Translations under genes and position numbers: made by a program
NCBI GenBank assembly: GCA_947650005.1
Contig: CANSTU010000007.1
Coordinates: forward strand, 1 to 64,000
Direction: 5' to 3'
Length of the DNA: 64,000 bases
Origin: an uncultured Lachnospiraceae bacterium
GTDB lineage: Bacteria; Bacillota; Clostridia; Lachnospirales; Lachnospiraceae
Notes under the pieces: generated by a model
Told to the model about the DNA's origin: nothing
What the model saw: the letters and a program-made list of their open reading frames with translations, nothing else
The model's database searches: none
Shown: positions 2,171 to 57,830 of the stretch, piece by piece
Layout of the letters: each line of letters begins with the position of its first letter
Position numbering within the stretch: the stretch's first letter is position 1

Positions 2171-2471
2171 CAGAGGAACCGCCTTTCAACAGCAGCTGCC
2201 CCAGCCTGCCGGGACTTTGCCCACAGTGAAACGGCCCAGGGAGAGGTGCGGAGGCCGTGCTATGTTTTTGAACGCATTTCACGCCATGGAGACGAGACAT
2301 GCTTCCCTGGAGGGGCGTTGCCCGACAGAAAAGCGGCCATGGCTCATCGAAACGCCCGACGCGACGGCGTTCAAAAACATAGCACGGGCTCCGCGCCTCT
2401 CCCTGGGCCGTTTTACTGCGGGCAAAGTCCCGGCAGACTGGGGCAGCTGCTGTTGAAAGGCGGTTCCTCTG
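2171..2471 (+). repeat. Long-inverted-repeat element copy 1: 105-nt arms (2171-2275 / 2367-2471) around a 91-nt core
   Basis: Arms align without gaps with 5 mismatches in 105. The core is homologous to copies at 33735-34056 and 57626-57830. Confidence 0.9.
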
Positions 2472-4928: not shown

Positions 4929-5190
4929 ACTCGCATGGACAATGCCCAATCCGGGAATAACGGCCGCCCATGCATACCAAACGCATGAACGGTGCAGTCT
5001 GCTCCGCCATCTCTTCCCTGTCTGCTCCTAAACCGCAGGCGAACGCGGTAGCCTCCTTTTTGACCGAATCCTACCGCATTCGCCTGCAATCCGGGAGCAG
5101 ACAGGCAGAGACAGCGGGCACGGCCGAACCATGCGTCTGCCATTCCTCTATAGAAACGGATTCCTGTGGTCTCTCACCCCATTGTCTCCA

Positions 5191-32634: not shown

Positions 32635-33714
32635 ATGAGTAAATTGAGAATTGCAATCATGGGCTGCGGAAGGATCTCTGCATCCTACGCTGCCGCTTTT
32701 CGGCAGCTTCAAGAAACCGTCCAGTTAATCTGTGCCGTGGATATCGATATCCTAAAAGCAAAGGCTTTTGCCGAACCCTTCGGCGCGGCTTACGGAACCT
32801 GTTTTGAAGATCTGGAAAAACAGCAGATCGACGTACTTCATCTGTGCCTTCCCCACTATCTCCACGCCCCCATGGCCGTCCGGGCCATGCAGGCAGGGAT
32901 GCATGTGCTCACGGAAAAGCCCGTGGCAATGACTTTGCAGGAGGCGGACCAGATGGCCAAAGCCGCAAAGCAGACTGGAAAAAAACTGGGCGTGATTTTT
33001 CAGACCCGTTATGAGGAAAGCGTGATCACGCTGCGCAGGATGATACAGGAGGGAGCCTTTGGCAGGATTCTAAGCGCCCGTTCTTTTCTCACCTGGAACC
33101 GTCCCTATTCCTATTATGAGGGCAGCGACTGGAAAGGCACCTGGGAACGGGAGGGCGGCGGCGTGCTCATCGATCAGGCTATTCACAGCATCGACCGCGT
33201 CCGCCACATGCTGGGAAGTGAAGTGGAATGGATCGATGGAAGCATCCACAACCACTGCCATGACCGCCTGCTGGTGGAGGATAGTGCGGAAGCGGCCATC
33301 CGCTTCAAAAATGGCTGTATCTACAGCCTCTATGCCTGCAATTCCTATGCAGACGATGTTCCCATCTACCTAGAATTCTTTGGAGAAAAAGGCCGCTGCG
33401 GTCTACGGCAGGATGTGGGATTCTATGAGCTCGATGGAAAAATGCACACCATTCCCGTGACTACGCAGACGCCCGACGGAGCGTCTTCCGCCACGCCCTC
33501 CTATTGGGGCGAGAGCCATCCGAAGCAGCTTCTGGATTTCTATACCAGCGTCCTTTCTGATACGCCCGTTGCTGTGGATGTAGAAGAAGGACGGCGCACC
33601 CTGGAGATCATCAAAGGGATTTATCTTTCCTCCCTGAAAAGGGGACGGATTTATCTGCCCTTTGAAGATGTAAAGTATTGCGGTCTGAATCAAATCCAGA
33701 CACAGACGCCATAA
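32635..33714 (+). CDS. Gfo/Idh/MocA family oxidoreductase
   Basis: IAIMGCGRISASYAAAF, HVLTEKPVAMTLQEAD. Confidence 0.95.
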   Translation: MSKLRIAIMGCGRISASYAAAFRQLQETVQLICAVDIDILKAKAFAEPFGAAYGTCFEDLEKQQIDVLHLCLPHYLHAPMAVRAMQAGMHVLTEKPVAMTLQEADQMAKAAKQTGKKLGVIFQTRYEESVITLRRMIQEGAFGRILSARSFLTWNRPYSYYEGSDWKGTWEREGGGVLIDQAIHSIDRVRHMLGSEVEWIDGSIHNHCHDRLLVEDSAEAAIRFKNGCIYSLYACNSYADDVPIYLEFFGEKGRCGLRQDVGFYELDGKMHTIPVTTQTPDGASSATPSYWGESHPKQLLDFYTSVLSDTPVAVDVEEGRRTLEIIKGIYLSSLKRGRIYLPFEDVKYCGLNQIQTQTP

Positions 33715-33734
33715 CCGGATTTCTCCTTATCTCC

Positions 33735-34056
33735 ACGCCAAACACAAAAACGGTTCGATAACACTCCCTTTGGGCCCCTCCCAGGATGCGGGTGGAAACG
33801 GTACGCTCCGGCACGATAGAAAGGGGGAGGTCATGGATCTTTTCAGGTGCCTTCATGCCATGAAGAGGAGACCTGCTTCCCAGGAGGGGCGCCCCCGACT
33901 GGGAGGCGTCCTGGGCTCCTCGGAATGTCGGGCGTGAGCGCGACCGAAAAGATCCATGGCTTTCCTCCTTTCTTCCGTACCGGAGCGTACCGTTTCCATC
34001 TGCATCCTGGAAGGGGCCCAAAGGGAGTGTTATCGAACCGTCCTTGCGTTTGGCAT
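33735..34056 (+). repeat. Long-inverted-repeat element copy 2: ~110-nt arms (33735-33844 / 33946-34056) around a ~101-nt core
   Basis: Arms ~89% identical by eye with one small indel; core homologous to copies 1 and 3. Confidence 0.9.
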
Positions 34057-34065
34057 CCTCCTTTC

Positions 34066-34842
34066 TCATGATCCGGTGGACTTGAATTTTCTGATTCCCA
34101 CCCGGTACAGGGCATAGGACGGTATCACAAACAGGAGAGACAAGAGCGGACAGAGCACATAGAACAACCCTGTCTTTCTGTCGATCAGGTACAGCAGGGG
34201 ATAATACTGGAACAGGGCCAGCGGAACCATGAAGGTCAAAACCTTCAGGATCTCCTTACCATACACGGAAAACGGATATTGGCCGAATTTCCTGGAACCG
34301 TAGGTGAACACGGTCAGGAAATCCATGGACTCGATCAGGAAAAAACTGAAGGAAGCCGTCATCAGAAACAACGCAAAGAACACGATGCTCCCGCAAATGA
34401 TCATCAGGGCCAGCACGAACATTTTATCCACTGTCCACCGGATTCCGCTCGTCCTTACCGCATAGGCCAGCACGATGACCGCCTGAATGGTAAGCCCCAG
34501 TCGCGTGAAGTCTGTATTGGGCGCCAGAACCTGCATCAAGATGCTTCTGGGCCGCACCATGATACGGTCAAAGCTTCCGTCACCGAGTATTCTGGAAAAG
34601 GAAGCCAGGCCGCCCCCGAACAGTTCTCCGATGGAAAAGGACAGCATCACCACCGAAAAGCACAATAATACTTCCTGAAAGGAAAAATCATCCACCCGGT
34701 CGATTCTCCCAAAAAGGAACGCAATGCTGAAGAAAGAAGCAAAAGCCGTAAGAAACTGGCCAAAAGTCGCCAACAAAAACGAGGCCTTGTACTGCATTTG
34801 GCTCTTCAGCTGCATTCCAAAATAACTCATGTATAATCTCAT
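34066..34842 (-). CDS. ABC-2 type transporter permease
   Basis: 6-TM ABC-2 permease (ABC-2_lan/YbhS-like), in operon with a second permease and an ATPase. Confidence 0.88.
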   Translation of the reverse strand: MRLYMSYFGMQLKSQMQYKASFLLATFGQFLTAFASFFSIAFLFGRIDRVDDFSFQEVLLCFSVVMLSFSIGELFGGGLASFSRILGDGSFDRIMVRPRSILMQVLAPNTDFTRLGLTIQAVIVLAYAVRTSGIRWTVDKMFVLALMIICGSIVFFALFLMTASFSFFLIESMDFLTVFTYGSRKFGQYPFSVYGKEILKVLTFMVPLALFQYYPLLYLIDRKTGLFYVLCPLLSLLFVIPSYALYRVGIRKFKSTGS

Positions 34843-57625: not shown

Positions 57626-57830
57626 GCCGGAGAGGCGAATCCCGCGGCAGGAGAGAGGCGGCGACGCCCTATTTTTGAGTGAATTTCGCGCCCTGTAAAT
57701 GAGACCTGTTTTCCTCGAAAGCCGTTTCCCTACAGGGAAGCGTTCAGGGCTCATCGCATTGTCCGGCGCGATGGCGCTCAGAAACAGGGCATGGCCGCTT
57801 CGCTCTTGTCACGGGACTCGCCTCTCCGGC
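57626..57830 (+). repeat. Long-inverted-repeat element copy 3: arms 57626-57692 / 57765-57830, decayed outer extension to ~57610-57846
   Basis: CCGGAGAGGCGAATCCCGCGGCAGG...GCCCTATTTTTGAGTG pairs with CGCTCAGAAACAGGGC...CACGGGACTCGCCTCTCCGG; core homologous to copies 1 and 2. Confidence 0.85.

Follow-up and report, generated by a model that had tools for sequence, protein, structure and literature searches.

A long hairpin that nearly fills the gap between two convergent genes, designated copy 2, was analyzed in a window of 64,000 nucleotides from an uncultured Lachnospiraceae bacterium (the host genome below). Copy 2 is, in our assessment, probably a non-autonomous Lachnospiraceae mobile element of the foldback/MITE type, in which the arms are homogenized with each other and the tip of the hairpin is selected during propagation. 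The tip of this element family is conserved across genera and the arms are not.

Fold, gene setting and tip architecture

When the 342 nt at positions 33725-34066 were folded, a single long hairpin of -252.2 kcal/mol was obtained (z -21.1), and none of 100 shuffled sequences was as stable; the opposite strand was similarly stable (-240.8 kcal/mol, z -20.4, 0/100 shuffles). A sequence-only reading had described arms of ~110 nt with ~89% complementarity, and such arms were recovered, being 89% complementary over 92 nt without gaps and 88% (96/109) with gaps. That reading also held that the core of copy 2 aligns with that of copy 1 and that the arms of the two copies are unrelated. Both statements stood, as the tips (33852-33934 against 2278-2352) are 77% identical and no arm alignment extended past the innermost bases. 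The P2 stem was recovered with the sequences that had been proposed (Table 1), and the two neighboring genes, now backed by Pfam matches, are separated by 351 bp, of which copy 2 takes up about 318. Near the ends of copy 2, only an imperfect 6-bp repeat was found.

Table 1. Positions of the elements, tip components and neighboring genes in the window
Feature	Positions	Strand	Basis or partner
Gfo/Idh/MocA oxidoreductase gene, upstream of copy 2	32635..33714	+	PF01408 2.5e-30
Left hairpin arm, copy 2	33737..33845	+	88-89% complementary to 33945-34054
Tip of the copy 2 hairpin, with core (conserved) and junctions, sense strand GAGGAGACC...GGGCTCCTC	33846..33944	+	CM/BLAST family, covariation
P1 5' side TTCATGCC	33852..33859	+	partner 33931-33937 GGCGTGA
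5' side of the conserved internal loop, ATGAA (family ATGnA)	33860..33864	+	family alignment
P2 5' side GAGGAG	33865..33870	+	partner 33916-33921; T-A, C-G and G-C variants among copies
P3 5' side CTTCCCAG	33876..33883	+	partner 33899-33906
P4 hairpin GAGGGGCGCCCCCGA, flanked by GA/GA	33884..33898	+	equivalent GGA..GA loop in other genera
P3 3' side CTGGGAGG	33899..33906	+	partner 33876-33883
P2 3' side CTCCTC	33916..33921	+	partner 33865-33870
3' side of the conserved internal loop, GGAATGTCG (family GGAATGYCC)	33922..33930	+	family alignment
Right hairpin arm, copy 2	33945..34054	+	pairs with left arm
ABC-2 type permease gene, convergent neighbor of copy 2	34066..34842	-	PF06182 5.3e-40
Copy 1, 105-bp arms, 95% complementary	2171..2471	+	arm and tip search
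Copy 3, 54-bp arms, 81% complementary; shorter, more diverged	57626..57830	+	arm and tip search

Across genera, the tip follows one consensus, in which CCATGGARATGAGAC(C/T) leads into P3, with its GGA..GA loop and P4, and then through a bulge into GGCTCATYGGAATGYCCGG; the base pairs of P2 vary in step (A-T, G-C; T-A, C-G, G-C). Among the host copies, covariation was found at 23 of 39 tip pairs against 11.1 in shuffles, and it exceeded that in slides too, although this comparison carries the caveat that homogenization can act in the tip as well. The internal loop is unpaired in nearly all copies despite homogenization, which suggests that the internal loop matters. No tip reversed in orientation relative to the arms was seen in G203. 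In G012, a 16-nt palindromic insertion, ATTACTTTAGTAATTT, occurs at one shared tip position (L088-L091 and L101).

Copy number, distribution and mobility

Across the family, element length ranges from about 200 to 320 bp. A BLAST search of the host genome with the tip gave 40 matches, and a covariance model built from 31 tips gave 103 strand matches, a count that includes antisense matches to the palindrome and that corresponds to about 70 distinct copies. The host genome therefore carries at least 70 copies, and the true number is probably higher because many host contigs end inside a tip; the contigs C97, C29, C53, C48, C93, C108 and C6 terminate in this way, and the elements appear to break the assembly. 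Of 54 intergenic host copies, 18 are in convergent, 26 in tandem and 10 in divergent settings. With one representative genome compared per species, 5 of 13 genomes of the genus were found to be carriers, with at least 70 (host), 43, 11, 9 and 3 copies, and the other eight had none. G012, a complete genome of 7.29 Mb, has 43 copies, and G203 has about 40. Further Lachnospiraceae genera carry the tip, and no other family was found to do so in samples of 299 genomes of the family and 392 genomes of the order, for which the counts are lower bounds since few candidates were scored per genome. No Rfam family matched the element at gathering or relaxed thresholds, the only hits being eukaryotic miRNA hairpin models below the gathering score. 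The element was also without a match in viral contigs and plasmids, and no description of it was found in open-access papers.

The elements in relatives are plainly mobile. In G012, the 260-bp copies have common ends, ACTCAAACTTCGCAG, and perfect 5-bp target duplications lie outside these ends at 14 of 25 copies, as compared to at most 4 in 1000 shuffles. Duplications of 8-13 bp were found outside shared TAGGYAATTGCGAAAC ends at about half of the 30 copies examined in G203. Duplication evidence from the host genome is weak overall (at least 6 bp at 8 of 54 copies, with 1.7 expected and 1000 shuffles peaking at 8), and one copy, L012, is flanked by a 9-bp duplication, GGATTTAAG. The sequence-only reading had called for a comparison of presence and absence among relatives; this was run on another host copy, L043, whose insertion site proved cleanly empty in eight relatives. 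Terminal inverted repeats are clear in G012, G203 and G110, and the host consensus is degenerate and not uniform. Moreover, G012 and G203 contain mini-derivatives that keep the element ends. Some of those in G012 (L110, L112, L113, L115 and L116) consist of about 26-70 bp with both ends only, and some duplications are still visible; these very short derivatives are likely to be palindrome deletions that occurred after insertion.

An autonomous partner with the same ends, which MITEs usually but not necessarily have, was not found in G012 or G203 by a terminal-repeat pattern search, which returned full copies and mini-derivatives only, and ordinary genes, not a transposase gene, lie between paired G012 copies. 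A weak Transposase_31-like (YhgA) ORF beside one G012 end repeat was rejected as a candidate, as no pair of ends flanks this ORF.

Other repeats were seen at or near element positions. At the position of L012 in the host, another REP-like unit, TTTCATACTATTGAATTTATGCCCGCTTTAGCGGGCATGGGGTGTAAG, is repeated in tandem in G002 (L174, contig C194), and unrelated palindromes (e.g., GGTAACAGTTCGGCCACCCGGC...) were found in G002 at intergenic positions that bear an element in the host (L173 and L171). A conserved box resembling CCRTAACCTTCC is found just beyond the left arm, at a distance of a few bases, in G110 (L208, L227, L235 and L236) and G001 (L150, L158 and L159) and is absent from most host copies; a ACACAACCT-like box was found outside the arm in G259 and G003.

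Evolution of arms and tip

Among 55 host copies, the arms (median length 100 bp) were 96.6% complementary, with 19 copies perfect, and pairing within copies was flat with distance from the tip. Between copies, by comparison, arm identity fell from about 0.6 to the random value of 0.25 beyond about 80 nt from the tip. Global arm identity with free gaps was uninformative, as random sequence scored equal; in a gapped alignment, copies differed by a p-distance of 0.147 in the tip, 0.40 in the innermost 60 nt of the arm and 0.53 in the outer arm. Because the arms are paired within copies yet diverged between copies, they must have changed in step many times. Paired changes were already present in 14 recent G012 copies, where all 14 two-sided changes were complementary and none was non-complementary, in addition to 35 one-sided changes. 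In one copy, L090, the tip loop GGA has become TCC, the complement of the opposite side. Counted on the tip-sense strand, mismatches in the arms of the 55 host copies were G.U in 55 cases and A.C in 82, and those in the tip were G.U in 31 cases and A.C in 30.

The lack of a G.U excess, together with the paired changes in recent copies, indicates that the co-change of the arms takes place at the DNA level. Homogenization of arms by polymerase template switching has been established elsewhere (PMC8604942, PMC8794818), and we infer that it is the most likely process in this family as well. Near-perfect arm pairing alone is no proof of a working RNA. What the sequence-only reading implied, that pairing is kept as a structure under selection, thus holds at most for the tip, and for the arms homogenization at the DNA level fits better. 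These long palindromes are natural and abundant in Lachnospiraceae, and in them pairing within copies and divergence between copies can be measured together. This allows a direct test of how far template switching, as opposed to RNA selection, gives rise to compensatory changes, which are frequently regarded as proving an RNA structure.

Alternative explanations, related elements and the role of the tip

The hairpin could instead represent a structured RNA or bidirectional terminator, which, when transcribed, would end convergent transcripts, be processed by RNase III or carry a regulatory tip. The extreme fold stability, the covarying tip stems with their tandem GA loop and the position of the intergenic host copies, which often lie within 0-40 bp of stop codons and are convergent in 18 of 54 cases, are consistent with such a role. 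However, 10 of these copies are in divergent settings, neither the arms nor the tip show an excess of G.U over A.C, no T-run follows the copy 2 arms, the copies are patchily distributed, with relatives that do not have them, and an Rfam match is lacking, making this explanation unlikely. Snap-back synthesis, in which every insertion event would generate new arms as flanking or distant DNA is copied onto the other side of a fixed core, would account for arms that look copy-specific and near perfect. Yet the outer arms of 26 copies matched only their own partner and the family, with no donor elsewhere in the genome, the empty site of L043 is free of arm sequence, the arms align to a common consensus, and the G012 and G203 copies have shared arms; we therefore consider this origin very improbable.

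Likeness to REPINs and the REP-RAYT system is seen in the many extragenic copies, each an inverted-repeat hairpin with compensatory changes (cf. PMC3116915), and an element of this type would be mobilized by a Y1/RAYT transposase. Y1_Tnp (PF01797) is, however, absent from the host and from the carriers G002, G110, G124, G225, G259 and G203, whereas a Y1_Tnp protein is present in some genomes of the same genus that have no element copies. In addition, conservation is found at the tip and decays outwards, and is not located in repeats at the base of the hairpin, and the target duplications found in relatives, 5-13 bp in length, speak for a staggered cut of the DDE type, so that a REPIN-type origin is extremely unlikely.

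The element shares several features with MITEs, namely short, non-coding sequence, many intergenic copies, inverted termini, mini-derivatives, no transposase of its own and target duplications, which were seen in G012 and G203 and are weak in the host. Unlike MITEs, which have terminal inverted repeats of ~4-30 bp (PMC10969869), the element has arms of 70-155 bp that span nearly its whole length. Its center is more conserved than its ends, and one tip is combined with terminal repeats and duplication lengths that differ by lineage, which also sets it apart from MITEs. The Foldback (FB) transposons known from eukaryotes consist for the most part of inverted repeats that surround a loop at the center. 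The element described here shares this layout, but is bacterial and much shorter, and its loop is structured and conserved. ERIC, Correia/nemis and BOX are also intergenic repeats that are mobile and form strong secondary structures; in these, the whole unit or the ends are conserved, and no sequence relation to the element was found (no Rfam match).

Under the preferred explanation of a non-autonomous mobile element, the arms, once inserted, would be repeatedly copied onto each other through hairpin-templated template switching, a step that is strongly supported, and would thus remain near-perfectly paired within a copy even as the arms of different copies diverge. Selection during propagation would act on the tip, comprising P1, the ATGnA/GGAATGYCC internal loop, P2 and P3/P4, and a putative mobilizing enzyme may read it as folded DNA, either in a cruciform or in a lagging-strand hairpin. 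The function of the tip is probably that of a folded-DNA signal for mobilization. Among recent G012 copies, the rates of change in the tip (19 events at 74 sites) and in the arms (57 at 185) were not clearly different; since the tip is not clearly slower, selection during propagation appears more likely than a function for the host at the individual sites. Conservation from the inside out points to mobilization by reading of the tip, for which no counterpart was found among described small bacterial mobile elements.

Lineages differ in the end repeats on which this tip sits and in the length of the duplications, so the tip does not act simply as a recognition site for a single transposase. The tip could, as a tentative possibility, represent an independent conserved folding module that hitched onto several unrelated types of transposon across Lachnospiraceae or was acquired by them. 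Such a module might, as folded ssDNA or RNA, recruit a mobilizing factor or cap the palindrome against hairpin nucleases. If this were true, the tip module would constitute a new mobile element design that is defined by its center and not by its ends.

Two other features were observed in the window. A separate inverted repeat of 35 bp with a 19-bp loop (83% complementary) lies at 5017-5105 and has, as far as seen, no relation to the tip family. A T-box leader (Rfam RF00230, 98.5 bits) is located at 2603-2855 on the plus strand and begins about 130 bp past copy 1.
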